This document shows positions 6,735 through 43,695 of a DNA stretch of 64,000 bases, piece after piece (position 1 is the stretch's first letter; each line of letters begins with the position of its first letter). The notes below the pieces were generated by a model that did not search any database, was not told the origin of the DNA, and saw nothing but the letters and a program-made list of their open reading frames with translations. The DNA lies in the NCBI GenBank assembly GCA_030068145.1, contig JAPJBO010000829.1, forward strand, positions 1 to 64,000, given 5' to 3'. The position numbers were made by a program, and so were the translations under genes. Source of the DNA: Diplonema papillatum. Lineage: Eukaryota > Euglenozoa > Diplonemea > Diplonemida > Diplonemidae.

Positions 6735-7095
6735 GGTTGCAAGAACGTGCTTTTTTTTTGGAATGGGTATGTGCCCAACACCGCAATGGGCATGTGCCCA
6801 ACACCGCACTGGTCCCGTCTGCGCCGTGTTTCGGTCCTTTAAGCCACGGACACATAAGGCGGACCATCATCAGCGTGGAACCTGAGTGTCTGCAGACAGG
6901 ACTGCGGTGTGAGTCTGGTTTGTCAGGCGGCTGTTCGTAGCTCGTCACAGCCAGGACCACCCGCGCTACTAGAGCACAGGCGAATCCGTCACGGGGAGAA
7001 GGCCCCTACAACCGTGTCTGAGCAATCAGATAAAAAAACTCAGGGCACTCGCCCTGATTGTGACTGCGACTCGCTAGGCAGCACTGACTTGTCTT
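6735..7095 (+). repeat. Family C, copy 3
   Basis: The longest copy, with a short internal duplication of ggtatgtgcccaacaccgca and the 3' block gcactcgccctgattgtgac that is also in copy 1. Confidence 0.75.
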
Positions 7096-7608
7096 CTTTT
7101 TACGGTGGCAATCTAGTGGGGAGGGGAGACATACTCCAACTACAAGCCGGTCTTTCTGTTGCTGGCGTTGGCGCCCGGCATTGAATCCAGATTTACATCT
7201 TCTCCTTCGAGTTTTGCGCCTGGCGGCCTCCCTAACTGTTTCCTACACGTTTCACATTGGGGCTGGTCGCCGGGCATATAGTTTTCGTCGGGCGCGCTGT
7301 ACTAAATACGCCAACGTGCAGCCCTTTGAAAACGTCGGTCGCAGTAGTCAGTAATCACAAACTTGGCTAGCCGTAGTTAAAGTGTGCCAATATGTCTACA
7401 TCCCTTTCACTGTCCGACTCCCAGCCTCAATGGTCAACCGGAGGCCCTACCACAATAAACGCTAAAACAAGGTTTCCTTGCTCGTGCGTAAAGACCTGCA
7501 CGACGCTTCAGTGGAGAGTCACCCATCGTTTGCTGGCAGCGAAGTGACTGAGAGGGACTATCGCGTCCCCCGCGTGGTAAACTCAGCAACCGGCGGCGCG
7601 GCGGGTGC

Positions 7609-7681
7609 TCAGTTGAAATCCGAATCGGGCGATTCAGCTCCAGCTTGCGAAGGGAAAGAGCACGCTTCGATGGAAAGGTAC
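7609..7681 (-). CDS. Giant gene exon 11: proposed last exon
   Basis: Acceptor cactcccgccacacag fits the other acceptors of this gene, phase 2 matches, and 23 codons lead to TGA (YLSIEACSFP...DSDFN). The intron is only 130 bp. The alternative at 5239-4999 (basic ARKRMKSTRKS start) has a poorer acceptor and would give 9,005 aa. Neither carries a membrane helix. Confidence 0.45.
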
Positions 7682-10600
7682 CTGTGTGGCGGGAGTGGGG
7701 ACATCATGTTGTGCACGGGGCTCGGTGATGGGCGTACGGTGAGCAGCGGGGAAAGGGGAGGTGCTTTGTGCATTGCAGTTTCGTTCTTTTAAACGAAAGC
7801 CAGGCGCATACGTAAGGGTGAAGCGGTGGGTGCCTCTCCCGACGCTCGAGATGTCAGGCGACCAGATGATGAACTCGAACGCCGCGGTGGCGTGCTCCCA
7901 CGGCACCAGCACCGTCAGCTCGTCGAACGTGTCGCCGTCGCCGTCCCCGACGACGTTGACGCCGGTCATGTACGGGATTCTCTTGGTGAAGACGACGCGC
8001 TCAGCGTCCTGGGCCTGTTCGTCCGGGCTTCTGTTGTCGAAGATCCCGCCCGACTTGCGCTGCTTCGCGATCCGGACCTCGAAGCCCGACCGGTCGTGGT
8101 GGCTGACGTCCGCAACAAGTATGCCCGCCTTCAGCCTCAAGTGCGAGCGGGCTCCAAACGTATATGTTGGAGTCTCGATGCGAGTTCCGAAGTGTCGGTA
8201 CGTAATCGCTGGCGACGTCAAGAACATGTAGTCGCCCATGTTAAAGCGCAGCTGTGCGGGTGTGTGGAATGATGTTCGTGGTTTACGGCCTGCGGTGCGC
8301 GCTACCCATTCGCAGCCGGCATACGCGTGCTCACTCTGCGAGGGATGCAACGCCAGCAGCACCCGACAAAGTTTAAAACCCGCGAGACCCGAGCGATCTG
8401 GAACGACAAAATATTCGAGGGATTGCCTTGAGCTCATTTCGACGGAGGGAACAATACAGCTACAAAGCGGGCCTTTTGTTGTTGAACGCTTACGCCCGAC
8501 ACTGAAGGTAGTTTTCCCATGCGCCAACTGGCGGCCTCCTCGAGTCTTTTCCTGCACGCAGCCTTTATTATTTTACGTGTTTGTTGTCGACAACTTGATT
8601 TTGTGTTGAGGTGTCATTCAGATGTAAATCTAAAGCCGCCCACGTCAAATTTTGTTAAGCATTGAGTTCTTTTAAGTACATGAACCACATGGATTAGCAT
8701 GCACTGCCTTGAAAGTCAGGTTATCGGATGACGTCGTCACCTGCCATTGCGTCGTCAAGGTCGAGCATTTGTGGAGCTAGCGGGGTTTGGCTTTCTTGTG
8801 ATTCCAGAGACTGAGTCGGCGAATACGAGGGCGGGCTTGTGTGCCCGTTTTTCACTTTCGAAGGCATTGGCGTGCCCGTGGTCCCCGGTCGTTTCTGAGA
8901 GCTGCTTGCCTTCGGAACCTTCTTCTTCCTTTGTTAAGCATTGAGTTCTTTTAAGTACGTACGTAAGTTTGTTAAGCAGCGGCTGCCAAAACTTGCCGTG
9001 ACACCTAAGATCAAAGTAGAGTGGAAAAGAAGAGGTGTGAAAACGGGTTGAGAAAAGCTCATCGGATACCAGCAGATCGTCTGTTGTGAATTCCGTCAGG
9101 TCTTCGAACGCGGTCACGGCGCACTGGTTGCTGGGTCTGACGGCCCAGGGGCGGCTGAAGTCGCAGGCAGCCCCTTCCCACCCGTAGGCACACACGTCGC
9201 AAGCCGCTCCTTCCCAGTGCCCGTGGCAAATGCAGCCAGATGGCGTGCACTTGCCGTGCCCGCTGCACGAGAGCGTCACGCCCGAGGCCACCACCACCCC
9301 TGGACACGACCTCGCCTGGTGCAGCGATCGAGTCGAAAATCCAAGGATCGCGACCGTGTCAATCTGAGCCCTCCCGACAGCGCTGGTGCCGTTTAACAGC
9401 AGCCGGATGACCTTCGCCTTCTGGAGCACGGTGTGCTGCCCGACGCTGTTCGGGTCGAGGGTGACCTGCGACGTAAGGCCCTTCACGTAGCCTTCCTTCG
9501 GTCTGTACACGCGGGATATCGGACCCACGTGCGACGACGGGCCATCTCGCCTCCACAACAACTGGAAGCTGTGCTTCGCATTCGGGTTGATTGACCGCGC
9601 ACTGAGGGCGCCCGACCGGAGATCGACATCAACCGTCTGCGTCGTGTTCTGCGCGTCAAGCTGTTGGTGTTGCAGGTCGATGGGAAGGAGAACAGCAGAC
9701 CTTCCTTTCGCAACTGGCAGCCTCAAGTATTTCCTACAAAGCAGGTGCTTATACTAAAATACTCGAGGGGCTGCCTTGTGCTTACTTCGAAGGGGGGGGA
9801 GAGGCTAGAGGGAGAAACAATACAACTACAAAGTGGGTCTTTTATGTTGAACGCTCACGCCCGCCACTGAACCCAGATTCACCCGAGTTTCGTGTGGGCT
9901 ACAGCACAATTACCTCCTTTGATCTTTTGCAGCTGGAAGTCACCTCAAGTATTTCCTACAAAGCAGGTGCGTATACAACAAAAGAGAGAGAGAGACGAGT
10001 TAGAGTGCAGGGACCATCTCTCCGGGGAGTTTCCGGTCTCCTCACTACAAAAGAAGACACGCGCTTCGTTTTGGTTGTGCGCCGGTTGACCGGTATCCCA
10101 CTCGTTTTCACCTTGTGTCATTTTCAGGTGGGAATACTGATCGCACCATAACACGCCGCCCACGTCTATGTTCCTGCACAATACACTGAAGTGACCGGTC
10201 CGTCCCTATCTCTTGAAACTGCATCGAAGTGCCTGCCGCTGTTTATCACAGTGAATCACGGTCCACCACGGTCTATCAGGTCCATCTCTAGTCCCTAGAG
10301 CTGCATCGAATTGCCCGGTGCTGTATTCTTCGGTCTATCACGGTCTATCAAGAAGAGGGAATGGACCGGCTCATGAAGGGCAATCCGTGGTCTCGCTTCG
10401 TGATCAAGGGATGAAGCCGGAAGTGACACAAAATGACCATAGGGAGAACTGGCTTGTGCCAGCCAAGCAGTCATAGCGACGTTGCTTTTTTGATGTCCGG
10501 CCCTGCATAACCTAGACGCCAGAATTGTCCAAGGGTCGGATTGTTCACCCACCAGCAGGGAACGTGAGCTGGGTTTTAGACCGTCGTGAGACAGGTTGAT

Positions 10601-13600
10601 TTTACCCTACTGATGGAGAGCCCATCGGGTCTAGTCTCTGGTGTCTCCCCCGGCTCAACTGCGGTTGATCGAGGGTGACATCACTTGCACGTATCGGTGG
10701 ATGTCTTGGCTCTGGGAACGATGAAGACCGCGGCCAGACGCGATAGTCAATGGGAATTGCAGAAGCATGAGACTCATCAGGTCATCGAACGCAATAGCGG
10801 GCTGGGTTCGCCCATGCCCATCAGCAGTTGAGTGTCGCTTGAAAATCTAATCTCTCAGACCGCGTTCAACTCTTGATTCGATGATGATTGGCATGCTGAT
10901 AATCGTCGATCGAGTTGAATCGGTTTGAATGAGAATGAGGCGGTGCAAAGATCACTTAACCCGATCGATGTTCTGTTTGAAATTCTGGGTCCGAGAACGA
11001 GCATCGCATATCTTCTGGAGTTGAATCGCAAGGTTTGATTGGGTTGTGTTACTGCTATATAAAACAAAGAGGGAGGTGCGAGACTCCTTTCTGTTCGGGG
11101 CGGTGTTCGTACCTGTTCCGGCTTGTGTACACGCGTTTGCTGAATGACTTCGCCGCTGGCGAGCCGTTCTAACACGGGAGACGACCCGCCTGGCACCGCG
11201 TCGGCACCCGAAGGGGCAGGCTGGGCCCACACTTCGAGCACGGAGCCCGGGTTGTAGTTCTCGTAGACCCACACCTGCGTGATGAACACAGGCTCCGCGT
11301 ACTCCAATTCGACGAATCTGTTGGTTTAGGGCGGTGTGCATTTCGCTGAGCGAACCCTCCCTTTTTCGCAGTGCGCGGTGGGCAGTGGCGAGCAAGTGGG
11401 CACAAGCCTGAGCCGCACCACCCCGCAAGTCTATCAAGCGCCAATCCTTCCCCCCGAAGTTACGAATCGATGCCGTTTGCCGGCGAATGGCTTTCTAACA
11501 CGCGTTTAAGAATCCGAAGAAAACGCAAAACGAGAAGAGTGGACAACGAGACATGCCGGCGCAGTCGGTACTCTTGCGAGACACGATGCAAACGAACGCT
11601 CCCCTTGCGCTCGCTGAAATTTCCTCTTCACAAGTACGGTGCTTGTACCAACAGGGACACAGCACTCGCCATGCGGGGACGATGCAGGTTTCTCTTTTGA
11701 CGACAGTGTAGAGGACTATCGTCACTGTAACGGGTAGTGGGGAATGAAGGTTCGAGTCCGGGGAGGGAGCCTGAAATGCTGTCGCGTTTTAGCGTTGTTG
11801 TGGTTTAGAGGTTCGGTGTTTTAGAGTGAAAGTTCGCTTGAGGCGCGCTGCGTCTCGGGGGGTCAACCACCCTCTCGGATCGTGTTTACTTTGGCTCTTC
11901 AAAACGCTGGCAGCAGCAACAACCGCTGTAAGGGGAGGACTGCCTTCTATCTTGGGCACGACCCCTCTTTCCTAATCAAGGGGAATCGACGACGCAACGC
12001 CCTTTTCCTCTACACCGAACCTGCTGGGGCTACGCTGCCAACTGCCTTTTGGACGTGATCGCCGGGTTGTTCTCGCGAGGAAAAGGAAGCAAGAAAAGCA
12101 TACTGGAAACCGGCGTCGCTGTCAAGCAGCGGCTCCCACGCATTGGCACGATTTGCTTGGTGCGGTCTGTGTTGGGTTGATTGGTGTTTTTGTGCTTCCG
12201 ACGATCCCGTATGGCGTGCAGATTGGTGTCTTTCGACCTTTGTGCTTGCGAGGTTCAGCTTCGTGCGTGGTGTGTGACAGTAGGATTTGTTCCGGAAATG
12301 TTCCCGTCAGTACAGATGTACTGTTAAAATACTCGAGGGACTGCCTTGTGCTCATTTCGAAGGAGGCTAGAGGGGGAGAACAATACAACTACAAAGTGGG
12401 TCTTTTTTGTTGAACGCATACGCCCGCCACAGAACCCAGATTTACCTGTGGTTCGTGTGGGCTACAGCACATTTACCTCCTTTGTCTATCGCAACTGGCA
12501 GTCTCCTCAAGCATTTTTCTATACAAAGAAAAAAAGAAGGCATACTTGAAGTATTCGCCGACCGCGTCGGGCGGACCGAGGAGGCTCAGCACATTGCCGG
12601 GGGCGGCCTGCGTGGAGTAGTCGTTGACGCGCACGGGGTACTGCACGGCGCGCAGCTCGGGATCGAAGAGCCGTGCATCCGTCGCCGCCGGGTCGGATTC
12701 CTCCCGCGGCTCCGGCGGGCTGAGCGGCGTGTCCAGCGCGCCGCACGCCGGGCCCGAGTAGCCGGCGGCGCACCGCTCGCACCCGCCGCCGGCCCAGAAC
12801 CCCGTCGAAAACCCGCTGAAGCACGCGCACGCCGCGCCGCGGCACACGCCATTACCGCCGCAGTCCTCCTTCGGATCGGACCCGGGCGGCACCACGGTGC
12901 AATAGGCAGCCGCGGGACTGCCCGAGAAGGCGCAGGCGGTGCACGCGGCGCAGTCGCCCTTCGGGTCCGTCCCCGGTTCTACCGGCCCGCACACCCCGAG
13001 GCCCACGCACGAGTGGCAAGGCGCGTCGCAGGCGCCACCGCAGCAAACGCCTTGCGCGCAGAACCCGGACGCGCACTGCGCCCCCGCCTCGCAGGCCGCC
13101 GCGAGCGACCGCAGCGGCTCGCACCGCGCCTCCGCGCAGAAGAAGCCGCCGGCGCAGCCGCCGGCGCCGCCGCACGTCGCCCGGCAGGTCGCCCCGCTCG
13201 CGATCTCTCTCTCGGGCACGCTGCCGCTCGTGCCGCAAAGATACGGCTTGCACTCCTGGTGCGAGCTGCACGCTCTCCCCGCTCTCCCGCCCGGTGCGGG
13301 CGGGGGTGTCCAAGGCTCGACGAGGGCTACTTCGGTCGACGCGGGGATGGGAACCCTGAGACAGGCGGCCGGTGCGTCCACGCATGCCTGCGGGATGTTC
13401 TGAGCACGCTGGCTTCCGGTGGTCACTGTCTGCGAGGGGATGCATTGGTGGGTGTCGCTGCACACGTAGAGGGGGGCGCAGTGCAGGTCGACTTCGCAGG
13501 CCGTCCTGCAAACGGCCGTTTCGAGCGGTTCGGCGGACCTGTGCGCACCGCAGACAAACGGTGCGCAAGCGAACGGGCCGCGTCCGAAGCAACCGACGAG

Positions 13601-16600
13601 CTCCTTCTCCCGCGCCGTGCGATTTTCGCCTGCGATGGGACACGTCGTTTCGTCGGCCGCCGGCGCGTACTCATCTTCCGATGACGAGAGGCACTCGGCG
13701 TCTCCGGCTTCGCATCCCGAAACCGCCGGAGCCGCGTGGGTCGCGAACGATGTGCAGATCCCGTCTTCGCACGCGTACCCGTCCGTGCAGTGCAAGTTCG
13801 AACTGCACCCCGTCCTGCAGAGATCGCCTTCCCTCGGCAGAGTATGCCGATCCCTCCCGCAGACGTACGGGTGGCAATTCCGCCCTTTGCCAAAGCAACT
13901 GTCGCTGCCCGAGCACCTATACTGCAGCACGGGAGGACACTCGCAGGCTTCGACCTCTGGAGGTAACAGCGGGACTTCGCTGCACGAAACGTCGACATAC
14001 ACAACGGCAGGACATCGGACTGAGAAGTACTCTCCGCCGGGACCTTTAGGCGTGCCGGGTGGGCAGTCGGTTGACGCCGGGCATTGCGTGCCTTGCACGC
14101 AGGCTTCGTGCCGGGGGATCTCTGAGGTGCACGAGCATGCCCCAAGGTAATCAAACCGGCTCATCCCCGGGGCGAAAGCCGCGGAGCCGAGCCGGGCGAC
14201 CGGCCTCCCGCGGCAGTCGATCTCGACGCCGTCGGTCGCGAGGAGGCTCGGGCACAGCTTGGAAGCAGTCCCCGGCGCGCACACCGGCTTCGGCGGGGGA
14301 TCGCACCCGCAGGGATGGTCGACGACCCGGTCCAACACAGGCGGGAAGGTGCGCCGGCAGTCGATGGTCAAGGGTGCGTCGTCCCACACGGGGCACGCGC
14401 CCTGGGAGCAGACGCCTTCCGTGCCTTTCCGGCAGACGAACCGCGGGAAAGGGCAGCCGCAGGGATCGTGGTCGCGCCGCGCGCACGGCTGCTGCGCGAG
14501 CTGTGGTGCAGGAAACCCGGCGCAGTCGATCTCGAGGCGGCCGCCGAGGATCGAAGGCCAGTCGGGGCACACGGGCGAGCCGTCGGCGGCCCGGAGGCAT
14601 TTGATGCGCTCGGTGCCGCCGGTGGCGCGCGGCGTCCCGTCCGCCTTCGTCGTGTTGACCACGGTGTCGGCACGGCACGTCGGCACGGGCGGCGACGTGC
14701 ACCCGCAGAAGTCCTCCTTCACCGCTTGCCGGTACGCGTGCACATCGTGGACCTGCCGCTTGCAGTCCACGGTCGGCTGGGACAGCACGATCTCGGGACA
14801 CGACGCGCACTGCCCCGTGGGCTTCCGATCCAGCGCGGCGGCGCACAGCCCCGCGGGACAGGATAAGAACCGGTGCCAGGCGCGGCGGGTGACGTTCTCG
14901 CCGGGGCCGGCGAGCGGGAACCGCGCGCGCAGCGCTTCTGCTTCGCTGAGAACGGCCCCGTGGGGCCCACACAGCACCTGCGCCGCTTCTTGGCACCACG
15001 AGCTGGGCGATGCCGCCCCGCTGGTGCCCTGCCGGCACACGACCCGGGTTGCCCACCTCCCGCACACGTCCACGTGCGGGCAGCTGGTGTACTGCGAAGG
15101 GAACCCTTTGCAGTCGTACTCCACCTGCGCCGGCTCCAGCCCCGCGGCCGGCCCGGAGCAGCAGCCGCCGGGCGGGTCGGACGGCGCGCAGACGGGCGCG
15201 GGTGCCAGGGGGCAGCCGCACGCGTCCTTTTCGACGCTCTGCGCCGGGGCGCAGTGCCCCCCGCCGCAGTCGACCAGCGGCGGGTCGACGGCTCCGTCGA
15301 AGTACTCGCCGGCCGCCCACCGCCCGCCGGCGGCGCACGTCTTCGGGCAGAAGAGGTCCGCGGTGCACTCGGTGATGACGTCCGACGCGTTCGACGCGCC
15401 GAAGGTGACGTTCACGAAGTACGTCTGCACCGGCGGCGGGTCGCATTGCGTGCAGGTGGGACCTGTGTACCCCGGTGCGCAGACGCACCGCCCGTACGTT
15501 GGGGATTCCACCTCCGTGTCGCAGAAGCCGGACGGTGTGCTGGCATGGCAGACGCCGCCGCGGCACCTCGCGGTGTTGCACGTTGCGTTCACGGTGCACT
15601 TCGGGATGGAGCAGCTCCCGCCGACGAACCCGTCTGCACACTCCCCGCACGCCTCGCCGGCCCAAGACCCCAGGCCCTGCGGGAGGACCACCGGCGGCGC
15701 ACCCGACGCAGGCACCGTGCTGAGCGCAACAGTCCCCAGCAGGTCACCCAGGAACTCCCTCGTCTCCTCGTACCCGGCCCATCCGCCCGGCAGGGCGCCG
15801 ACGGCCGCGGCGGCGACGTTCCAGCCGGCGGTGCGTTGGAGGCGGATGCCTGCCCAGTGGCTGCCGCCGGGTAGTGCGTCTTCGCCGGTGCCGCGCCCCG
15901 CGGCCAGCGGCAGCGCGAGCACCGCGGCGCCCGCGTCGAAGACGGCGGCCCGCTTCAGCAGCCCGGCGAGCGGCTTCGCGGCGCTGCCGGACGAGATGTC
16001 GGCGCCGAGGGTGACCCCCTCCGCCATGAACACCGCCGCCGGCAGCACGGGGAAGCAGCAGCCCGCGCGCGCTTCGGACTGCGCGAAAATCGAGTCGAAC
16101 GCGCCCGGCGTGTCTCCCACGTGCGACACAGTCCCGACGGTGATCTTCTGCGTCGTTGCAGACACGTGGACCCCGAGCCTGTGCCATGCTCCCGTGAACA
16201 GCGGTAGGGCGTTCGCTACGGCGACGACTTGGTTCCCGCCGCGGTCCTCGACGATCACCTTCACGGTGCCTTCCTGCAGCACCCCGTCGGGCTCACCTTC
16301 GTTCAGCAGCACTTGGACCCTCCCGCCGTCCGCGTGAGCGATCCGGAACAGGCTCATCGGCGACGCGAGGGAGCTCGACTGCAGCATCACGTGGAAGAAC
16401 AGGTCGCGAAGCTCCGGAACCCGCCGGTAGTGCACGATCAGCTGCGCTTCCAACAACGTCAGCGACGCGGAGGACGGGGCGCCGGATGCGGGCGAGAGGT
16501 CGATGAACACCGAGAGTTGGCTGATGGCAGCGGCAGACACACCGTGCAAGGGAAAAAAGCTGGTGTCGAGGTTCGGCTCGAGGGTGCCACCCGGTGTGAC

Positions 16601-31600: not shown

Positions 31601-34600
31601 AGATTGCGGCGCGGGGCCAGGGGGACGTGAGCAGGTGCCCTGTGTCCCGGTGAAATCAGACCAGCGGCAGCCGGAGGCGAGGCAGGCCGGTTCTGCTGCT
31701 ATGGCGGCGCAGGTCTGCTCGCGCCACGCCAGCGCGGCGCCGGCGGCGGCGTCGTTCCGCGCGAGGCTGAGCGTCGCGCGGCACTCATCGCCCATCGACC
31801 GCACCGCGTTGCCCGCCGCATCCAGCACCTGCGCCGCGAACGAGTTACCGGCGGCGGCGTCCCCCAGCAAGCAGGTCGCCCTGCTCCGCAGCGCGGCAAC
31901 CCGCCGCGGCGCGCCTTCCGCGACGCACACCACGGGGCCCGCCGCCGCCGCCACGTTCCCTTCGCCGTCGCCGCCTTCCACGCTCAGGGCAACCTCGCCC
32001 GCCGCGTCACTCCACACGTTTTCGAACAAAATGACGCCTTTTTCGCCAAGAACCCGCGCCGACACGCTGCCGCGTAGAACATTCGTCTTCCCATCGACCC
32101 CCACGGTGTCGCCTCTCAGCCGGGCTTCGACGCTCGCGCCCGAGGCCCCGTGGGACACCGCGTTGCCGTGCAAGTCGACCGCGCGGATGGTCACCGAAAA
32201 CGGGTCGTCGGTTGATGATTGGGGGTCGCCGCAGGGCGGCGTGGCGACGAACTCGAAGCGGTGCAGCCGACCCGGGAGCACGGTGACCAGCGGGCACGGC
32301 TGGTGCGCGCCGGGGTGTGCAGACGGGGAGGCTGCGAGGCGGTAGCTCCCGGCGGCAGCGGGCGCCAGGCCGGCGAACACGGCCACGCGCCCGCGGAGCG
32401 GCGCCGAGGCGACGGCGAAGCCGTCGGCGTGCAGGAGCACGGGCCCCGGGTCCGGCCCGGCGTACTCGACGCGGGCGTCGAGCGATTCGCCGGCGCGCAG
32501 CGTGCGCTTCGAAACGGTGCAGGAGAGCCGGGCGGTGCCCGCCGGGGGGCCGATGGCCAGCGCGCACGGGCCGGTTGCGGGATCGACGGCCAGGTCGACC
32601 CAGGTTCCGCTCTGCGACTTGCCGGCGGCGGTGCACGACACGTCGAACTCGCCCTCTTCGCCGACGGCGGCGGCGGCGGCCCGCACCGTCAGCGGGCCGG
32701 CCGCTTCGGCCAGCTCGAACGCTGCGGTGACAACCGCCGCAACCTGCCCATCGCCGCGCCGCACCTCGCAGGAGACCCGCAGGTCCGTCGTGGTGGGATA
32801 CGCGGCAAAGTTGCCGTGGGCGTCGAACGCACGGATTCCGACTTCAAACAACCCGGCGGCCGCCGCCACCTGCCGCCTCTGCGGGCACGCCACCTCCACC
32901 CGCGCCGCCGTCGCCGGCCGCACGGCCACCGCTCTGCACGCATCGCGGGTCACCCCCGCGACGACCGCATTGCCCGGGTTCGGGAATGGCTGCAGCACCG
33001 TGGTGCCCGCCTGGGTGAGGGTGAGGTGCCCCCTGTAGGTCCCGGGGGTGGCCGTGGCGGAGACGCTGCGGAAGACGAGGGGGAGCGGCGCCGCGTCGTG
33101 GCGGGCGGCGCTGGCGTTCGCCGGGTGCTGCGTGTGGAGCAGCCGCCGGACAGATATCTGCCGCGACACGTCGCCGCAGACGGGGGAGGCGGACGGGCAC
33201 GTCTTCGTCTCGACCCGTCCGGCGGCCGAGTGCGACACGGTCGTCAGTGCCGCCACAACTGAAAATTCAACCCCTGCCGTCACCACCGTCGGCAGCTCCA
33301 CGCAGTCCAGGTTCACAGACCCAGACCGGACCGACGGAGCGGGCCCGGAACACTCGACGGCCGCGAACCCAGTCGCCTCCGCGAATATGATCGGGGAGTC
33401 GTCGGCTGTGTACACGACGTCAGTCAGCCACAGCTCGCCTGCGGCGCCCCACCCGACGGCAGCGACGGGGGTCCCGTCTTGGTGCAGGACTCGACCCCCG
33501 CTCTTCGCGGAGAGCCGCGCGACACACCCAGGGCATGCCGCAACGTTGCCGTGCCGGTCGACTGTGTGCACGTGAACAACGCCGAACGGCCGCCAGATGG
33601 ACGCGTGGGGGACGGCCGCTGTCACCTCGCACGCCAACCCGACGCTCGCCTGGTGTGGAACGAGGCACACCGGCGCCGCGGGCTGCGAGATGAACGCCGT
33701 GTCCCGCGTGCGGACGACAGCAGCCAGGGCGAAGCACCCGGCGGCGCTGCGCTGGAGGCCGCAAAAAGAGGCGCCCCCGCTGCTATTGGCCTCGCGCGGC
33801 GCGGAGCCGCCGAGCGGCGGGGCCCGCAGCGCCACGTCGGCGCCGCCGACGGGGTCCGAAAACGCGTCGGTCACCGCCACGTCGACGCAGAACGGCTCGC
33901 CCGCCTGCAGCGCCCCGCCGCCAGCCGGCAGCCGCGCGGCCACGACGGCGCGGGCCGCGGGGCCGGGGGCGACGAAAACGGCGGCGGACGCGGCGGGTGG
34001 TAGATTCGGCGCGCCGCGCACCGAGGCGGCGACACGGATGGCCTCTCCGGCGGCGGTGTACGCCAGCGGCGAGAACACGGCGCGTCCGCGGGATAACCTG
34101 GAGGTCAGCGTCCCGGAGAGGGCGCCGGAGCCTTCGAGCAGCGCCAGCGTCACCACGCTCCCGTCCGTCGAGGTGTCGCTCGCGGGGTTCCCGTGCCCAT
34201 CGACCACCTCCACGACGGCGGCCAGCGCCTCTCCCGCCCGCGGATTCCCGGGGCCACGCCCCGAAAGCCGCACGGCCAGCGCAGCCGGCGCCGCGGGCTC
34301 GACGGCGAACGGGCCGCACACCGCCGGCAGCAGGGCGCCGGGGGCGAGCGGCGGGCTGCCGGAGGCTTCAAGCGCGGCGGCCAACGCACCGTGTGGGAGG
34401 ATGGGCGCGGGGCTGGCGTGCTGACCGGGTTGCGCGAAGGCGGGGGCCGTGCCGGCGGTTGCGACGAAGACGACGGCTTCCCGAGCGTTGGTGAGCGACA
34501 GGCTCGGAAACACGGCGATCGAACGTCCCGAGAGCGGCGCCGCGTGGAGCTGGCGGTGTGCTGCCTCGTTTGTTTGGAGGTAGAGGCTTGTCTTCCACGA

Positions 34601-37600
34601 GTTCACCGCGTTGCCGTAACGGTCCTGCACTTCAACTGCGAGAGCGAAGGGCTCCCCTGCTACGAGCCGAGGTACGGCACCCGTAGAGTGGCACGACCCG
34701 TTCACGAAAACGAGCCGTTCGGCCGCCCCTGGGGATACAAGCACGCGGAGCTCGCCGGCGGCGACGGCAGCCGGCGCGCCGCCGACGGTCGCGCCGCGGG
34801 CCGTGAGCCGGAGGACGAGGCCGCCGGCGCGCGACGCGAGCAGGCGCGGCACGCGGTGCGCGCCGCCGCCGCCGGCGGCCGCCGCCGCGCGGGGCGCGAA
34901 CGCCGCAGGCTTCGCGGCGGTGCTGGCCCAGCCTTCGAGCGTCGCCGACAGGTCGTGCGCGGGGCAGCTGCCGTCAACGCAGGCGACGCCGTCCACCGTC
35001 AGCCGGGCTTCGACGGCGAATTCCTGACCGGCGATCACACTGGCGGGAATGGTGCGCAACGCCAGCCCGTACTTCGCGACTTCGACAGCCCCGCTGACCC
35101 CGGTAAGCGAGGTTCGAAGGGATCCCGCGGAGCATCCGGCGGGAGCATCGAGAGCGGACGTCGCAGACACGAAGAGAACCGTGGTGTCAGCACTGCCGGC
35201 AGCTGGCGATGGTGGGAGCCACGAGGTGATGGGGAAGGCGGCGGCGGCGCCGTCGAGGCGCGCCTGCGCCGTGCCGGCGAGGACGCCCGGCGCGCGGGCC
35301 GTGCACGCCGCGTCGGTGCACAGGTTGAGGGTCACGACGGCCCGCGACCGCTGCACTCGGTTGCCGAAGGCGTCGAAGGCGGTGACCACGACGTCGCCGG
35401 GCCAGGCGCCGCCCCTGGGCACCCGCTCAGGCGCGTCGACGGCGATCCGGTGCATCTCGGCGGGAGCGAAGCAGAGCACGTGGCTGGGCGGCGACGGGTC
35501 CAGTCCAAACGCGACCGCGCGCAGGCGCACGCACCCCGCCTTCGTGTACACGGCCACCACCGTCACAACCCCTGCACCGTCCTCCACGGCCTGCTGCGCT
35601 ACCGCTTCGCCTGCACCGGCGCCCTCGTACACTTCCAACGTCACGGTTCGTTCACTGCAGGCCGCCCCGTTTTCACACGGAGGAACGGTGTTGCCGTCGG
35701 AGTCGGTTACCTGCACGGTAAATTCAAGGGATTGACCGGTGACTGCCGTGGGGCACGGGGACGGAGAGGTCTCGCCGTCTGGGCTCGCGACGGTGAATTC
35801 GGGGGGCGATCCGGGCTCGCAGGGTTGCTTGGAGATGCGGAGCTTGGCGGCGCGGCCGGGAAGGACCGCGACGCCGCCGCAGGCGCCGGGGGAAAGCCCG
35901 CGGGGCAGCGGGCGGGTCGCGAAGACGGAGACGAAGCGCGACGCTTCCGGCTCCGGGGAGGCCCTCGCGCAGGAGCTGGCGGGCACCCGCTGGAAGCGGG
36001 GGGAGAACCGGGTTGCGGCCGCGCCGCACCAGCACGCGGCCGGCGGCGCGGCGGCCGCGAGCCGGCCGACGGCGAACGTGCCGGCGCCGGCGGCCGCGCA
36101 GCGCGCCCGGCACGCTCCGGCCGGGTCGGTCGCGAAAACAACGGGCAGCGCACCTTCGCCGCCGATCGCCGCGTCGTACCAACTGCGCAGCACGTCGGCC
36201 GGCCCGTCAAGGTAGCACCCAAGCGCGACCGACTCGTCGGTTGCGTCCGGCAGCGGGGACACCCGCACGCTGAGTTGCTGCACCGGCGCGTAGGGGCGGA
36301 TGCTGTGGAGGTATTCGCCGGTTGCATCGACGTGGCCGCGTCCGCGAATTTCAAACGGCACGTCGCCAGCAGGATGCACCGCGAGGCGGGAGTCGTGGCG
36401 GACCGGGTTGCCGTGCGCGTCGCGGACGGCGGACGTGAGGATGATCGCCTCGCCCGCCGGCACGACGCGGCGGTCGGGTGCGCAGTGGACGGCAGCGGGG
36501 GCGCCTGGCTGAACCTGGGCGGGGACGTATACGGTCGAGGGGGATTCGCACAGGGGGCAGGCTGGCTTGCTCAGCAAATGGGCGAAGCGTTCGGCGCACG
36601 ACGAGCACGCGTCGCAGGTGACCTTCAGCCGGGCTGCGCCGGACCGCAGCAGGACCGCCGTCACCGTGGCGTGCCCGCGGGTCGTTTCGAACGCGATCTC
36701 CGGCGATGTATCGAACGTAGAATCAGTCCACGCCCCGTCGTCCCCCAGGTACTGCACGGCCACCACGCACTCCGCGTCGATGTACGGAGCGGGGAAGCCG
36801 TCCGTCGACTCGAGCTGCGCCGAGAGGGTGAAGGCCTCGCCGGCGGTCGCTTCGACCCGCCCGCCGCCGTGCGGCGGCAGCACCGCAACGGCCGCGGGCG
36901 CCAGCGCAGCGACCCGCAGCACGCGCGTGCCGGCCGCGTAGCCGGACCCTTCGGCGGTGGCCTCGAGTAGCGGGCAGGTCCCGCGGTACCCGGTGCCCCA
37001 CCCCACGACGCCGCCGGCCGCTAGCGGGATGCCGAACGAAATGTCGCCCGCCGCGAGACCTGCAGCGACGGCCTCGGCTCTCCTCGCCGGGGAATCGGTC
37101 CAAACCGCGACGAGGTTCCTATCGCCCGTGCACAGCTCGCGGAGGACAACCGACGCGTTAGCAGAGACGCCGGACGGGAAGGCGGGGAGGTCTGTTTCCC
37201 GCAGAATCTTGAACTCACCCAGCGCCTCGGTCAGCGGCTGCCCGTGCAGTATGACGAATTCCCCGGCGTTGAAGTTGACCGCGAACGCGGTCCGGACGGA
37301 AACGGCGAGCGCCGCGCACGCAATCTTCACGCCGCACCCGCCGGCCACCACCCCTTCACCGCCCAGCAACTCCAGCTGCGCCCGCAGGCGGACCGCCTCA
37401 CCGCAGTGCGCCCCCGCCTGCTGCGAGGTGAAGGTCAGCCCGGAGGCAGCCATCGCGCCGGCGCGCACGTCCGGGCCGGCCGCGGGGCAGGCGAACAGCG
37501 AGGCGTTGCGGGTCCCGTCGGAGACCCAGCCGCGTAGGCCGAAGACCACGCCCTTGCCCCGCCAGTAGGCCGACTTCCCCAGCGCGGTGGCGCGGACCGC

Positions 37601-40600
37601 GTACGACTGCCCGCGGCGGGCGGCGAACCGCAGGGCGACCGCCCGGCCGCAGCCGGACGCCAGCCGCGCGCCTACCTCGAGGACACCGCGCCGCGTGACG
37701 AGCGCCGGGCGCGCAAACGGGCCGTACACCGCCAAGCACCAGTCGGGAGACGAGAGTCGGGGGTCTCCGGAGAGCGTGATGGTGGCGTCGCCGGAGGAAG
37801 GCGACGTCGCTCGGTGCCAGTTGTCCATGTCGGAGTGGAGGGCCCGGTCATTCGGCAAAAAAGCGGACCCCGGGTTCTCCGTCGAAAACAGGGAAGCAAA
37901 GTACACGGCGAATCCCTCGTGAAGGCACGGCAGGTCAGGATCAGCGACTTCCAAGTCGGAGAACTGCGCCGCAGTCCGCAGAGGAGTGAGGCCAGGGCCG
38001 ACTGGGTTGTCGCAGCAACACCCCGGCCCGCCGTCTTGGTGCTTCGTGGCACACGGGCACGCGAAGGACAACCGGGCTTCGAGGGATGAGAACGTGCAGC
38101 CGAGGGATTCGCAAACCGTGCGGTCGGTGGTTGCGCTGCAAGCCTGCCCCGCGTCGCCGGAGACGCGATGGGTCGCCGGCGAGACGGCCAGGGTCCCGCG
38201 GGCGACGCGGGTCTGCGGCGCGCGGTTCCCGAAGCGGTCGACGACCGAAAACACAGCGGCCCCCACCTGGCTGCCGGACCGGACGAACGCCGGGCAGTCT
38301 GCGCGGACGCCCGCGGCCCGCGCGGCGGCGACCCGGATGCGCATGCCGCCCGGGCCCAGCGGCGGGGAGTGCGCCGTGACCAGGATCTCGCCCGCCAGCT
38401 CGCCCGCTGGGATCGCGACGACGCACGCGCCGCCGCCGGCGGGGCAGCCCCCGCGGAAGAGCACGGCGCCGTCGTGCGGCCGAACGGCGGAGACGGAGAT
38501 CGCGGCCGCCCACGGCGCGCGGGCGAACGACGTATCAACGGCGGAGACGGACACGTTGAGAGTACCGCCGGCTTCGACGGAAGGCGCGACGCCGGTGAAG
38601 CACCCCGAGCCGGCCTGCGAACGTACGGACAACTGCTCTGCCGGGCCAGATTCGAAGCGTAAGTGTAGCTCGTCGCTGGTGAGGCCGCCGACGCGGGCGT
38701 GCAGCAGCGCCGCGCGCGTGTCGCGGGGGTCACCACCGGGGCAGAGGGCATCAGGTATCGCGCCGAGTGTGACGTCCGGGAACGAGGCGACCCCACCTCT
38801 CCCCGCCAGCCCGCCGGCGCCCACTACGAGCAGCGCGGGGACCTCGTCGCTGCCTCCCGCCCACCGCGCCGAGAGCGCCACGCTGGCGGCCCCTTCGAAC
38901 CGGCACCAGAACGGCCGCCGCTCCGCGGCGCAGCCCGGCTCCGCGCCGCACCCGCCGCGCAGCCAGACCGCGCCCGGCGCCGTCCGCAGGGCGGGCGGCG
39001 CCTCATCCGGAAGCCCGCCGCCGGACGCCGCGCAGAACGCGGCGGCGGCCCGGTGATCGAGCGCCGCGTGGTACGAGAAGCACCAGCCGTCCACCATTTT
39101 TTTGGTCGAGCTGCGCTCGACGGCGCCGCGGGGGTCGTCCCACGTGCACCCGGTCAACAGATCCACCGGCGTAGCAGCAGGGTGGCCGTCCTCGTCCACG
39201 ACGGCAACCGACACCGCGAAGGACACCCCGCTACGGACCACGCCATGGGCAGGCTTGCCTGTGAACCGCAAGCGGAGCCCCGGGGTTCTGCGGGAGGGCA
39301 GCGCGTGGACGGTCGTGGTGAGGTGGTTCGCCCCGTGTTGGGCGTAAACGAGGAGCTGGGCGAGCGGCGACGCCGCCCGGCGGAACTTCAGCGCGAAGCG
39401 CGCGACTCCGTCCACGGCGAGGACGGCGAAGTGCTTCGCGCACGCGGCTGGGGCGGCCGGTGGGGGCGGGGGGTAGTTGGACGTTTTCACGTGGACAGCC
39501 GGCACATCAGCCGCAACGGCGTGGGGGAAAGCGACAGGGACACGACCTTGACAGGAGGCCATCGCAGTATACCGGATAACCGCGTCTTTCTTGATCCTCA
39601 GCGGCGTACTGGGCGGCGGGAACACGGCGCAGGCCGCGCACTCTGGGCGCACCGAGCACCAAGACCTGCACTCGCTGGCGGTGCCGAACCGCTCTTCGTG
39701 CAGGACGCGTCCGGTTGCGCAAGTTTTTTCAGGTGCAACGTCGTACCATCCTTCCGGTCCTTCCACGTCGCCCCCTTCGCCAGCGAGAACGCAAGCTGCC
39801 ACTTGCATGTTTCCCTTGAGTAAAGCTTGATCCGAGCTGTATAGCTGTACAGCGACGTCGGTGACTTCGCCGGCTTCGACGGTCAGCGCGTCGGTGGAGG
39901 AGGCGCGCGCCCAGCGCAGCTCGGGGGGTTGGAGGACGTTGCCGCCGCAGGCGACGAAAGGGTCGGGGCACTGGAAGGATCCGATGACCGGCGCGCCGGA
40001 CGGGTTGATGTACGCGGCGGCCGCCGCGGTCGAGCTGTTGACGCCGAGGGTGGCGGGGCCCGCTAGCGAGCCGGCCGCCGCGGCCGTGCAGAGGTGCGCG
40101 CGGACGCCGACGTGGACGAGCGCCGCCCACGTCGTCGCCGCGTAGGGGTCGCGGACGCAGGAGAACGGCAGGCACTGCGCCGCGGCCGCGGCCGCCGGCG
40201 CCGCGCCCGCCAGCCGCACGGCGCCCACGACGCACACCGACGAGTCGGACGGCAGCGAATACGGGTCGCACGGCGGGCCGCCGTCGCAGGACTGCCCCTT
40301 CGCGTTCAGCGGGCGGCGGTCCACGTTCAGCCCCGCGGTCGCCACGCAGAAATCGCGGGCGGGCGCCGTCCGGTGCAGCGTGTGCACCATGCAGAAGTCC
40401 ATCAGCGGGTCCGCCCCGTACTTCATCGACGCGTGCGCGAGCGACGAAAACAACGACCGCGGCCCGCGGTACGCCGCGCTGTGAAGGTACTGCGGCGGAA
40501 GCAAAGACAGGGGATCTTGCACCACGTTGCACGTGCCGACGAACGACGAATCCCCGGAGCACTGCGCCGCACACAGCGACACGTTCCTCGCGCAACCAAA

Positions 40601-42621
40601 CTGCTCCTCCTCGTAGCAGGCAAACCGCGAGGCTGCGAGGTCCTTGCGCCACTCCATGCACGACTCCGTTACGAACGCGCACCCAGCGTTCTTCCCGTAC
40701 GGAAGCGGCTCACCCCTTGAGTAATCGATCGAGTAATACCCGGAGTCCTGCAGGGCGGCGAGGGTCAGCGCGCTCATCGCCGCCCCGCGTTCGACGAGGC
40801 TGTTCATGAGCTCTCCGCTGGTGATTCTCTTCTCCCAATGGACGCGGATCGGCGTGCTTTTCCCGCGGCCGAACGTCCAGTCCTCGAGCTCAAGCCCCGG
40901 CAGCGCCGCCGAGCCGAACAGGTCGCAGGCGAAGTGCTCCTTCGCGGCGCGGACGACGTTCCGCGTGGTCTGCACGGCCAGCGTGTCGGGCACCGTGTTG
41001 TTGACCGCCGGGAAGAAGAACTCGGACGACGCCTGCGTCGGCCGCTGGGAGCGCCCGCGGAGGCTGGCGAGCGGGAGCGGCGACGGGGCGGCGCCGGCAT
41101 GCCACTGCACGTAGAATGAATCGGTCGAATTGGGCCTGGCTTGGGCCAGGGAGGGGGTCCAGCCCAAGGCGTGGACCATCTCGTGGGACGCGACTTGGAA
41201 GGTGTACCCAGAAGCACCAGTGGCGGGTTCCGCCTCGTCGATGCCCGAAGGCGCCAGGTTGATATGCCCGACGAGGGGCCGGTGCGTCACCGGCGCGAAC
41301 AGACACGGATAGCCGAAAGCGATCGTGCCGGCAGACGCCACCGGCGAGGCGGTTACGAACAGAACGAAGTCGGCAACGACGCCTGTCGGTGTGCGTTTCG
41401 CTTAAGCTCGACCAAGGATGGGGTTCATACATATGAGACGATGCCAAACCCCCCCCCTCCATGCTAGCATCAAACATGCATGCGAGGCAGTGTTCTGCCT
41501 AAACATTAAACTAAGGTTTTCTCCCCTTTTGCACTAATAAAATACTTTTCGACGTCACCCCCTTACTGGCCCCGAAACCCTATCTGGGCCCGCTTGTGGG
41601 CCTTCTGAGGCTCCTTTACCTTCACTTAACCCGCCAAAAACAGTTGAGGGCCCGTTTTGGGCCGCACAGACAGTGTTTCGGGGCCGGCATATAGTATGGG
41701 ATGACGTCAAAAAAATGTTTATTAGTGCAAAGGGGAGGGGGGGGGTTTTGGCATCGTATAATATATCATATGTACGGGTGTGCAAAAGGAAAGAATGCTG
41801 AAAATTCCGGTTCCGGACAAAAATACTCGTTTGTTGAGTACTCCAGATTCACCGTGTGTTTCGTGGGCTACAGCACGTTTACCTCCTTTGAGATTTTGGA
41901 ATACTCATCGGCATGCTCATGAGTACTACACTTTTGAGATTTCGCACTGGCAGTCTCCTCAAGTATTTCCTACGAGGCGGGTGCTTATAAAAAGAAAGGG
42001 TCTGAGTGGTCCCCCCAACAATCTTCTCTTTTCTCAGTCTAGTCGACCATTCCCTTCAAGATTGGCATGCTTTCAAGAAAGCTTCTCTTTTGAACTGTTT
42101 TTGCTTTGCTGTATTGGAAAGAAGAGGACACCTTCTGCGAGCCCCTCAAACGAGTACGGCGGCTTGCACGGCACCACGTCGATAGCAACAGAGTCTTCTG
42201 CGCTCGTCGCTTTGAGTGCCGAAAGCGCGTTCGAAACACGCCGGACCGCAGCAGCCACCGCGCGCTGTATGTGCGATTGTTTGGCAGTGGTGAGCAGGTC
42301 AGATGAGGTGCAGACGTGGGATGGCTCGTCGCTGCCCAGAAGGCTGACCTCCTGACCCTTCTGCCGGCAGGTGAAGGTTCGGTTCTCGAACTCGTAAACG
42401 ACGGTCACGTTGAGCCTCTTGAAGGTCTTCTGCGACGGCGCTACCACGTCCGTCGCTGTGCCAAGCTGCCGGTTGACAACTTCCGTCGGTGACCACCAGA
42501 CACTCTCGTCAACGCCGTGGATACTCTGGTGCATCGGTGCGTCCCGTGATGCTCGCCAACCGTACATTGGAGAAGCGGCACCGGCCGAAGCGAAGAGGAG
42601 ACCCAGCCATATCGCCAGCAT
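7609..42621 (-). CDS. Giant secreted leishmanolysin-like (M8) multidomain protein, 11 exons, ~8,949 aa
   Basis: Joined as 42621-42132, 41382-31078, 30037-28674, 28317-24106, 23219-19725, 18812-18041, 17448-12546, 11317-11113, 9660-9070, 8251-7812 and 7681-7609. Every junction has GT..AG ends and matching phase; the total is 26,850 nt with no internal stop. Order: signal peptide, M8 zinc protease, a long array of Ig/invasin-like repeats with lectin-, WSC- and PAN-like inserts, Kelch propeller, more Ig-like repeats, LamG-like domain, jelly-roll carbohydrate-binding-like domain, EGF modules, second LamG-like domain, Cys-rich repeats, C-terminal module. M8 proteases are zinc endopeptidases of the cell surface or secretome; the added modules suggest binding to glycans or cell surfaces. 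No membrane helix or GPI signal was found. Weakest points: the last exon, and the GTATCC donor of exon 9. The family's usual length is about 600 aa, so this is some 15-fold larger. Transcript data could split it. Confidence 0.75.
7812..8251 (-). CDS. Giant gene exon 10: unrecognised C-terminal domain
   Basis: Residues 8780-8925. Acceptor cacacccgcacag, phase 0. The sequence (FNMGDYMFLTSPAITYRHFG, LRLKAGILVADVSHHD, VNVVGDGDGDTFDELTV) looks like a compact beta domain with a possible calcium-binding DGDGDTFD loop. I do not recognise the family. Donor AC|GTATGC, phase 2. Confidence 0.75.
8406..8575 (+). repeat. Family A copy in giant-gene intron 9
   Basis: Diverged copy of the ~215-bp A repeat (acaatacagctacaaagcgg, ttgaacgcttacgcccg). 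It directly abuts the cassette element at 8577. Confidence 0.7.
8577..9000 (-). mobile_element. 55-bp-repeat cassette, copy 1 (decayed)
   Basis: Shares its outer flanks with copy 2 (left ttgaggtgtcattcagatgt; right cagcggctgccaaaacttgc). The left 55-bp direct repeat is at 8651-8705; the right one (8930-8958) keeps 29 bp. The minus-strand interior encodes the C-terminal half of the same small protein as copy 2 (PSKVKNG..., then PLAPQMLDLDDAMAGDDVI). It has lost the start and the first ~80 codons. It fills most of intron 9. Confidence 0.7.
9070..9660 (-). CDS. Giant gene exon 9: beta-module end and EGF pair
   Basis: Residues 8583-8779. It continues the module (VIRLLLNGTSAVGRAQID), then has an EGF-like pair (CSGHGKCTPSGCICHGHWEG, CDVCAYGWEGAACD). 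The donor I chose is CTG|GTATCC, phase 0; the open frame runs on into repeat DNA, so this end is less certain than the others. Confidence 0.75.
9706..9980 (+). repeat. Family A copy plus an extra A tail, intron 8
   Basis: A full A unit (9755-9980, from aaaatactcgaggggctgcc to gcaggtgcgtatac) is preceded by the isolated 3' tail of another unit (9706-9754). The same tandem habit is seen at 43186-43578. Confidence 0.75.
9981..11111. other. Rest of intron 8
   Basis: Holds a short GA run (9984-9998), a family B copy (about 10059-10200), a ~90-bp imperfect tandem pair built on gcatcgaa and cggtctatca (10200-10365), and otherwise plain AT-richer DNA. No gene seen. Confidence 0.5.
11113..11317 (-). 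CDS. Giant gene exon 8: C-terminal beta-module
   Basis: Residues 8514-8582. The join reads VGEYFK|FVELEYAEPVFI and continues QVWVYENYNPGSVLEVWA, a signature also found in eukaryotic discoidin-like or secreted adhesion proteins. The motif is split by the intron and restored exactly by phase-2 joining, which strongly supports the model. Donor CAG|GTACGA. Confidence 0.8.
11819..12323. other. Part of intron 7 with the 42-bp motif
   Basis: A copy of ttttagagtgaaagttcgct at 11819-11841. The rest has no recognisable gene. At 12290-12318 ggaaatgttcccgtcagtac resembles 60624-60650. Confidence 0.4.
12324..12535 (+). repeat. Family A copy in intron 7
   Basis: Near-complete A unit (from aaaatactcgagggactgcc to gcatttttctatacaaag). 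It ends only about 10 bp from the exon 7 donor. Confidence 0.75.
12546..17448 (-). CDS. Giant gene exon 7: LamG-like domain, novel Cys-rich repeats, EGF modules
   Basis: Residues 6880-8513. The first part is a jelly-roll or LamG-like region (WHRLGVHVSATTQKITVG). After an EGF-like segment (CVCAPGYTGPTCTQC) come at least five copies of a Cys repeat: a DC start (IDCAGFP, IDCRRTFP, VDCKRQV, IDCRGRP) followed about 20-25 residues later by CGC..P.P.C (CGCPFPRFVC, CGCDPPPKPVC). Further Cys modules (CRTGCSSNLHC, CRTACEVDLHC) and a last EGF (GNGVCRGAACACFSGFS) follow. Phase 1 in, phase 2 out (AA|GTATGC). Confidence 0.85.
17783..17945 (+). repeat. Family B copy in intron 6
   Basis: Shares gttttgtttcgtttgtgcgt and the caacccgcaagact end with 62-205. 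It lies in the middle of a 592-bp intron. Confidence 0.65.
18041..18812 (-). CDS. Giant gene exon 6: EGF/laminin-EGF-like modules
   Basis: Residues 6623-6879. Laminin-EGF-like pattern (CTCHANERDGHWAGPNC, then CAEGYSGADC) and a second EGF (GKQCSGHGVCRLDGACVC). A novel beta-rich segment with CTCSQFGEA follows. Acceptor taccacgcag, phase 0; donor CAG|GTACGT, phase 1. Confidence 0.85.
18985..19690 (-). mobile_element. 55-bp-repeat cassette, copy 2 (intact)
   Basis: Two identical 55-bp direct repeats at 19077-19131 and 19593-19647 (start tttgttaagcattgagttct) flank a 461-bp core. Outside them are flanks shared with copy 1, including the palindrome tgttgtcgacaac. A small ORF runs from the right repeat across the core. 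The element takes up most of the 912-bp intron 5 and lies in host-gene orientation. Confidence 0.75.
19148..19642 (-). CDS. Cassette ORF, 164-aa basic protein
   Basis: The ATG lies inside the right 55-bp repeat and the stop just before the left one. The protein has a repeat-derived start (MLIHVVHVLKRTQCLTN), a Lys/Arg/Pro-rich middle with nuclear-localisation-like runs (AGRKRKKAKATT, VQRRKRMALKA) and an acidic end (VLDLDDAMTGDDVIK). Copy 1 keeps the same frame over its last ~60 residues, with substitutions but the same motifs (VKN, PTQS, PLAPQ, LDLDDAM, GDDVI). That is the best sign it is translated. I do not recognise a family. It may be an element-encoded protein or an alternative exon of the host gene. 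Confidence 0.45.
   Translation of the reverse strand: MLIHVVHVLKRTQCLTNGEQRETPAGKRAAQAPPAVAKQKTATTGRAAKRPPPTPGTGERPALKKRVLGTPKESPIAGRKRKKAKATTPESGVQRRKRMALKANSYQKRSTSPSTPVPSRVKNVQDCPHLCPSTQSPEPQESPAPLAPQVLDLDDAMTGDDVIK
19725..23219 (-). CDS. Giant gene exon 5: Ig-like repeats, LamG-like and jelly-roll domains
   Basis: Residues 5458-6622. Two or three more Ig-like repeats (YKDAHGNLCGDG, RDQYNHGV) precede a LamG/concanavalin-like domain at about 5,890-6,080 (VFSAEMWARFP, WSNYAVLFAG, MVYDVRLYNERVDSD). Then comes a carbohydrate-binding-like jelly roll (WDNAHPHVG, YRLSAQVSFLP, ASVSVEYYDAADRL, AVFDAVSLEP), and a Cys-rich tail that begins an EGF region (CNHHGTCKAL). Donor TCG|GTATGT, phase 0. Confidence 0.85.
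23220..24105. other. Giant-gene intron 4
   Basis: 886 bp, donor GTGTGT, acceptor acaacccgcag. It contains a ~180-bp repeat (23585-23770) that recurs at 58800-58960, and inverted pieces at 2236-2313 and 196-225. No gene inside. Confidence 0.7.
24106..28317 (-). CDS. Giant gene exon 4: Ig/invasin-like repeats with PAN- and WSC-like inserts
   Basis: Residues 4054-5457. It has about eight Asp-x-x-Gly-Asn-type repeats (DATGNRV, DACGNRV, DASGNLA, DVNGNPV, DAFGNVA, DSWGNAV). A PAN-like segment (CASACEEAADCMLWTHRG), a second Cys cluster (CEVRCAQLRYRHIL...LCGC) and a WSC-like domain (LGCYEAA...SCSCGRQ) are inserted. Acceptor caaccgcag and donor ATG|GTGTGT are both phase 0. Confidence 0.85.
28674..30037 (-). 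CDS. Giant gene exon 3: Kelch propeller, continued
   Basis: Residues 3599-4053. Kelch-type blades (SVLFVFGGHNGAAASDALW, WYVFPGL, RIVLYAG, AYYWGGYNGDGVSNSVFGL) continue those at the end of exon 2, then an Ig-like segment with three Cys (TCVRCRLNVAV). Acceptor ttttccacag in phase 1 matches the exon 2 donor. Donor AAG|GTACGG, phase 0. Confidence 0.85.
30038..31077. other. Giant-gene intron 2
   Basis: 1,040 bp, donor GTGTGC, acceptor ccatttttccacag. A partial copy of the 23585-23665 repeat lies at 30585-30640 (gagcacaaactcaagag). No other element recognised. Confidence 0.7.
31078..41382 (-). CDS. Giant gene exon 2: M8 catalytic domain and Ig/invasin-like array
   Basis: 10,305 nt in one open frame, residues 164-3598. 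The protease site is intact: HEMVHALGW (His230, Glu231, His234), the third zinc His at about 345 in VHWEKRITSGELM, and the family-typical NAGCAFVTESC downstream. Then come about 13-15 repeats marked by Asp-x-x-Gly-Asn turns (DRYGNAV, DAFGNRV, DAHGNPV, DGHGNPA, DLHGNAV). Between them lie a PAN-like Cys segment (RSWCSVRPECAAC), a C-type-lectin-like segment (DGWCFSYHAALDHRAAAAFC), a WSC-like domain (GCYLDGP...CWCG) and PSI-like Cys clusters (EPACLASGCRWSD). The first Kelch motifs (FFVFGGAP, ALVIFGGISR) close the exon. Donor G|GTGTGC, phase 1. Confidence 0.85.
41818..41995 (+). repeat. Family A copy in intron 1
   Basis: A shortened A unit: the head (aaaatactcg) joins directly to the gtgtttcgtgggctacagca block and the caagtatttcctacgaggcg tail. 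Confidence 0.7.
42132..42621 (-). CDS. Giant gene exon 1: signal peptide and M8 propeptide
   Basis: Residues 1-163 plus one base. The ATG at 42621 is the first ATG after a candidate acceptor at 42757 and opens a signal peptide (MLAIWLGLLFASAGAASP). The segment ends SFEGLAEG, and joins to VVADFVLFVTA in exon 2; together these match the conserved M8 stretch ahead of the catalytic helix. Donor G|GTGTCC, phase 1. Confidence 0.8.
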
Positions 42622-43578: not shown

Positions 43579-43695
43579 GAAAAAGCGCCGGCAACTGATT
43601 CTGCTGAAGAAAAAGCAAGCTTGCTCGGAACTAACGTGTCCGCTTCCCGGAAGAGAAGCGCGGTCAGCAAGAAGAAGGAAAGAAGAGGAAGTTCG

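Follow-up and report, generated by a model that had tools for sequence, protein, structure and literature searches.

Can a single gene of 35 kb, read from raw sequence, encode a protein of nearly nine thousand residues headed by a leishmanolysin-type (M8) protease, or do separate genes lie next to each other at this locus? The question was raised by a first-pass annotation of the window (the whole stretch of 64,000 nucleotides that was analysed), which described a leishmanolysin-headed adhesion protein of ~8,950 aa. The open, spliceable frame contains some 24 Ig-like repeats in addition to an M8 domain, a WSC domain and a Kelch propeller. The gene is real, unusually long and M8-headed, and we think it probable that this one nuclear gene encodes a secreted, modular giant of ~8,949 aa which acts as a tethered cutter.

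The gene model runs on the minus strand from 42621 to 7609. A codon model combined with simple splice weights served to score the junctions between the long minus-strand frames, the start and the stop being kept as they had been set in the first-pass annotation, and the 3′ end was read directly. All the elements proposed earlier were recovered by this scoring, namely the ten GT/AG introns, the start at 42621, the stop at 7611-7609, the 205-nt exon and the 73-nt last exon. The 11 exons add up to 26,850 nt and their only stop codon is the terminal one, in agreement with the ~8,950 aa free of internal stops previously claimed for 35 kb; the predicted protein has 8,949 aa, ~919 kDa, a pI of 5.66 and 340 Cys. 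The parts of the model are the following, all on the minus strand.

Exon 1, 42132..42621, minus strand: start Met, leader MLAIWLGLLFASAGAA and N-terminal part of the M8 region
Intron 1 (749 nt), 41383..42131, minus strand: best-scored junction, crossed without gaps by the alignment with the M8 protein P0006
Exon 2 (10,305 nt), 31078..41382, minus strand: M8 catalytic part, first Ig-like block and first half of the Kelch propeller
Intron 2 (1,040 nt), 30038..31077, minus strand: supported by the Kelch score across the join
Exon 3, 28674..30037, minus strand: second half of the Kelch propeller
Exon 4, 24106..28317, minus strand: Ig-like repeats, PAN-like stretch and WSC domain
Exon 5, 19725..23219, minus strand: final Ig-like repeats, the stretch earlier called LamG and a Cys-rich end
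Exon 6, 18041..18812, minus strand: EGF-like, under the Pfam cut-off
Exon 7 (4,903 nt), 12546..17448, minus strand: a part without Pfam match, EGF-like, and a long Cys-rich region
Exon 8 (205 nt), 11113..11317, minus strand: continues a possible galactose-binding-like fold, no database match
Intron 8, 9661..11112, minus strand: dispersed repeats and, on the opposite strand, 5.8S-like and LSU rRNA-like pieces
Exon 9, 9070..9660, minus strand: remainder of the possible galactose-binding-like fold, EGF-like
Exon 10, 7812..8251, minus strand: acceptor 8251 picked by eye, 8128 scored best
Exon 11 with the stop codon (provisional), 7609..7681, minus strand: read directly, frame checked

The leader MLAIWLGLLFASAGAA begins at the first in-frame Met of the exon 1 frame and is hydrophobic and signal-peptide-like as judged by eye. 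A Kyte-Doolittle scan of the 8,949-aa chain gave four inner hydrophobic windows above 1.7 (residues 546, 1508, 5374 and 5651) and none above that value near the C-terminus. At the other end of the model some choices were less clear. The exon 8 donor GTACGAAC (11112) has the best splice consensus and ranks only fourth by total score; it was chosen for its consensus. Neither the exon 10 acceptor (8251 or 8128) nor the last intron is certain, and consequently the last ~170 aa are provisional.

The coding character of the locus was evaluated by comparing its longest frames with 200 dinucleotide shuffles. The first of the four long frames compared has 3,546 aa against a shuffled maximum of 910 aa, and the other three have 1,686 against 673, 1,425 against 647 and 1,188 against 584 aa. 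The GC content by codon position was 0.686/0.581/0.851, and by segment it was 0.47-0.57 in introns and 0.53-0.73 in exons (with exon 11 taken one base too long). Exons 2, 3, 4, 5 and 7 formed the training set of the codon model, which makes its signal circular in those exons; the signal was weak in exons 1, 8 and 9 and at the beginning of exon 10. A free Viterbi gene finder joined everything from 52657 to 2365 into one gene of 10,399 aa with extra introns, a result that speaks against the modelled gene ends and was not used for them; it also made antisense shadow genes, and its own splice model was partly trained on such calls. Considering that we are dealing with a single window of one genome, and that repeats and rRNA pieces in the introns could mark a poor assembly, the possibility that the gene is decayed, or an artefact of annotation or of assembly, has to be weighed. 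Against it stand the four very long frames, each of which exceeds all of its 200 shuffles, the strong codon bias and the good domain scores, and we regard an artefact or a decayed gene as very improbable.

A key aspect is what holds the exons together. GT/AG ends of matching phase had been offered as evidence for the joins, an argument that did not survive the controls: all 81 control pairs of non-adjacent frames allowed at least one such join, with a median of 75, and the nine real junctions that were counted have 46-115 in-phase pairs each. Since the control frame pairs permit them as well, joins of this kind are uninformative. The locus indicates that a 35-kb gene with ten introns may be readable from raw sequence, and that phase-matched splice sites alone are no proof of it.

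Domains that run across a junction are more telling. At intron 1 the join restores EGVVADFVLFVTA, as had been claimed; the alignment with P0006 passes the junction without gaps, and the M8 Pfam score rises from 121.6 bits without exon 1 to 142 bits in the joined frame. At intron 2 the Kelch family PF24681 reaches 76.7 bits in a single alignment that spans the junction, whereas the separate pieces give 31.0 and 32.1 bits (cut-off 50). That exons 1-3 belong to a single gene is well supported by these comparisons. For introns 3-10 no domain was found to span any of them in the scored Pfam and repeat-model tests. With the repeat model, the join brought no gain at intron 3 (joined -3.3 bits, left piece 0.4, right piece 3.7) nor at intron 4 (16.2 bits when joined, 18.0 for the left piece and -0.1 for the right one).

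These results bear on a different reading of the locus, in which at least two neighbour genes follow each other on the same strand, the first with M8, Ig-like and Kelch parts (exons 1-3 or 1-5) and one or more further genes for extracellular proteins, made of exons 4-11 or 6-11, with first exons that went unrecognised. The lack of a domain across introns 3-10 and the ease of joining frames in phase, whichever two are taken, speak in its favour. We looked then at the possible starts. Among the ten long frames, exon 1 is the only one with a leader near a starting Met; in the frames of exons 2-10 the first in-frame Met is found at residue 75, 140, 114, 264, 175, 195, 108, none and 46, respectively, so that none of them has a clear leader-bearing start, contrary to what separate genes would lead one to expect. 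A scan of the introns gave four leader-like ATG frames, two in intron 5 and one each in introns 6 and 9, the rate outside the gene being 6 of 177. Those of introns 5 and 9 open with one shared peptide encoded by a repeat; the one at 17638 in intron 6 is unexplained by repeats, is a possible alternative start and counts on the side of separate genes. On the other hand, exons 2, 4 and 5 share one type of Ig-like repeat, and if one gene ended and another began between exons 3 and 5, both would have to carry this module.

In a self-comparison of the window, none of the 26,850 exon nt fell in dispersed repeats, compared with 2,074 of the 8,163 intron nt and 4,193 of the 28,988 nt beyond the gene. 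The absence of other clear starts and the confinement of repeats to introns within the gene make introns 3-10 the most economical arrangement, and exons 4-11 likely continue the same gene. Thus the single gene formerly claimed stands well for exons 1-3, where domains cross introns 1 and 2, and as the most economical rather than a proven reading for exons 4-11; two or more neighbouring genes are, in our opinion, unlikely.

By homology to leishmanolysin, the head of the predicted product was identified as an M8 protease. The joined region scores 142 bits with the Pfam family PF01457 (cut-off 21), and the search of PDB sequences returned one chain, leishmanolysin 1LML, with an E of 1.1e-17. The HExxH helix, the third His, the Met-turn and a NAGCAF block all align with this protein (GP63). 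The 1LML chain has 478 aa, while the present head represents ~7% of a product of 8,949 aa. The aligned motifs are located as follows.

Zinc-helix motif HEMVHALGW (aa 230-238), 41159..41185, minus strand: aligned to HEMAHALGF of 1LML
Third-histidine motif VHWEKR and Met-turn ELMNS (aa 344-358), 40799..40843, minus strand: aligned to SHIKMR...ELMAP of 1LML

We take HEMVHALGW to be the zinc helix, VHWEKR to provide the third zinc ligand and ELMNS to be the Met-turn. The intact appearance of the protease site reported in the first-pass annotation is borne out by the alignment of the three elements with 1LML, and, judging from sequence comparison, the leishmanolysin-type head is real and its active site looks intact. 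Leishmanolysin propeptides carry an HxCxHD cysteine switch. In exon 1 it is HQSIHG that presumably sits at this place, and the latency of the head may work otherwise than by a cysteine switch. AlphaFold, given the M8 part together with a single relative, produced a model with a pLDDT of 36.2, which was unusable.

M8 proteases have been studied mainly as short surface enzymes. The first-pass remark that no M8 protease of this size or module combination is known was examined in part, by searching for relatives among length-bounded candidates. The protein comparison confirmed 0 of 2,090, 1 of 2,284 and 0 of 1,823; in the last set, in which the query was the first 4,000 residues and the lengths went up to ~7,000 aa, P0006 was missed although it was in range, and the sensitivity of all these searches was therefore low. 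The confirmed candidate, P0006, is an M8 protein of 3,216 aa (ENA, one member) whose M8 region matches with an E of 3e-32 and is colinear with the present head over residues 27-382 and 473-647 at ~30% identity. It is likewise long and multi-domain, but outside M8 it is unrelated to the present protein by BLAST at E 0.001. It has a C2 match just under the cut-off. With nine hydrophobic segments beside the leader, P0006 is probably a protease-headed membrane protein; it is a second long M8-headed protein, of a different kind.

P0006 keeps HEMLHVLGW and VHFEKR, but GDVSNS replaces the GELMNS of the present protein and the Met of the Met-turn is missing. Such heads can drift, in view of this loss, and one could suppose that the protein is as modelled with an M8 head that is inactive and has a structural role or one in binding. 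The present protein, however, has all the aligned active-site motifs, and we consider an inactive head quite improbable. Among the stretches taken from prokaryote genomes, 3 of 172 were confirmed, as distant bacterial M8-like matches (L001 and L003, from Tateyamaria and Roseovarius, and L002, from a Synechococcaceae MAG; 29-33% identity over 45-64 residues), and none of 8 stretches from viral contigs was. In the open-access PMC literature, no giant M8 protein and no combination of M8 with WSC or Kelch was found among the matches listed, apart from a ciliate family. This leishmanolysin-like family of Philasterides, LSF1-16, resembles the present protein in its signal peptide, M8 domain and Cys-rich regions but, as described there, is far shorter, 382-1,111 aa, and mostly has a C-terminal transmembrane domain (PMC13384842).

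Behind the head comes a long series of Ig-like repeats, with ~24 matches in exons 2, 4 and 5, half of which are located as follows.

Ig-like repeats, 12 of the 24 matches (aa 867-3400), 31673..39274, minus strand: found with the repeat model, leave-one-out

The repeat model, trained on its own matches, gave 24 matches, and each of 20 shuffles gave one at most. In the leave-one-out test, from which 6 of the 24 were left aside, 18 of 18 repeats scored 9.3-50.5 bits, the maximum in 200 shuffles being 7.7. A profile of 16 repeats, compared with the sequences of solved structures, matched FdeC (4e9l) at 1.4e-9; taken singly and allowing an E up to 1, only 2 of the 16 repeats matched Big_1 (PF02369), with a best E of 0.0089. 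The predicted structure of the repeat (pLDDT 93.4) has an Ig-like beta-sandwich fold. Its top structural matches were the C-terminal domains of GH2 proteins, closely followed by intimin; the matches to Runt, STAT and GH2 folds were not accepted as identity and were read as the common Ig-like sandwich. Among solved structures, those nearest to the present repeats by sequence are Ig-like domains of bacterial adhesins (FdeC 4e9l, intimin 6tqd/6tpl and the Ig group 1 protein 5ldy). The FUS1 of Chlamydomonas (PDB 9qs0, 'FUS1p'), which we take to be a gamete adhesin with Ig-like domains, matched the repeat profile weakly (E 0.091), and we know of no protease in it. The nearest sequence matches of this stalk suggest an adhesion protein, the name given to it in the first-pass annotation.

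The remaining modules were compared with Pfam. The joined Kelch propeller is clear, with 76.7 bits for PF24681 as given above and 59 bits for PF13418 (cut-off 21.6), and one WSC domain exceeds its threshold.

WSC domain (residues 605-687 of P0004), 26299..26547, minus strand: PF01822, 30.8 bits, cut-off 27.8

A second WSC candidate stretch fails this cut-off with 11.4 bits, and a PAN_1-like stretch in exon 4 (aa 4139-4172) is below its own, with 19.8 bits against 21.4. The EGF-like matches of exons 6, 7 and 9 were all under the Pfam cut-offs (best 19.7 bits against 22.1), and the stretch of exon 5 described as LamG had no Pfam family at E up to 5. Accordingly, the description of a leishmanolysin-headed, multi-module giant holds for M8, Kelch, WSC and the Ig-like repeats, while the EGF part is weak and the LamG part unconfirmed. 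Something similar occurs with EYFKFVELEYAEPVF in the region of exons 7-9: the motif is restored in frame, as claimed, but neither Pfam nor PDB sequences give it a name. This region may resemble the galactose-binding-like or discoidin-like N-terminal fold of FBXL4; the search of PDB sequences for this fold gave one match, due to chance (E 1.1).

With these elements a mode of action can be proposed. The leader would direct the protein into the secretory route, where the M8 head, once released from its N-terminal part, would become an active metalloprotease. With a length that is probably of the order of a hundred nanometres, the Ig-like stalk would keep the head off the cell wall or matrix, and the WSC, Kelch, PAN-like and Cys-rich modules would bind glycans or matrix proteins. 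Anchored in this way, the cutter would locally trim surface proteins of the matrix, of prey, of a partner cell or of bacteria. More tentatively, and with somewhat less than even confidence, we suggest a secreted single chain of ~0.92 MDa that combines an active metzincin with about two dozen Ig-like domains of bacterial-adhesin type and with Kelch, WSC and Cys-rich binders; as part of the same tentative suggestion, this protease-armed giant adhesin would be assembled from modules shared with bacteria. To our knowledge no protease-armed giant adhesin of this design is known in eukaryotes. If true, an M8 head on an adhesin-like chain of ~9,000 aa would show how a eukaryote can direct proteolysis to a set target at a set distance, and would help to test where the Ig-like adhesin modules common to eukaryotes and bacteria originated.

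The introns and flanks contain other sequences of interest. In intron 8, at 10444-10837 of the plus strand and antisense to the host gene, there are eukaryote-type rRNA pieces: an LSU rRNA piece of 154 nt (model positions 2825-2984, 115 bits) lies upstream of a 5.8S-like sequence of full length (98.8 bits) at a distance of 88 nt, in the reverse of the usual order. Together with the introns, these pieces mark the DNA as eukaryotic. They would be explained by an rDNA copy that has decayed and lost an internal segment; scrambled rRNA genes are an alternative. One family of dispersed repeats is common to introns 1, 7, 8 and 9 and to the upstream flank (43186-45290), and a second one is present in introns 5 and 9 (8563-8935 and 18984-19362, 79% alike); both could be mobile elements settling in introns. 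Upstream of the gene, a tandem repeat with a period of 153 occupies 44091-44405 (2.1 copies, 95% matches), and downstream there are three related intergenic repeats (676-985, 5381-5611 and 6789-7098, 83-96% alike). On the minus strand, the window also holds a retroelement-like frame at 53476-56217 (RVT_3, 42.4 bits; RNase_H, 25.5 bits, just under its cut-off) and an ankyrin-repeat frame at 62023-62907 (Ank_2, 144 bits).
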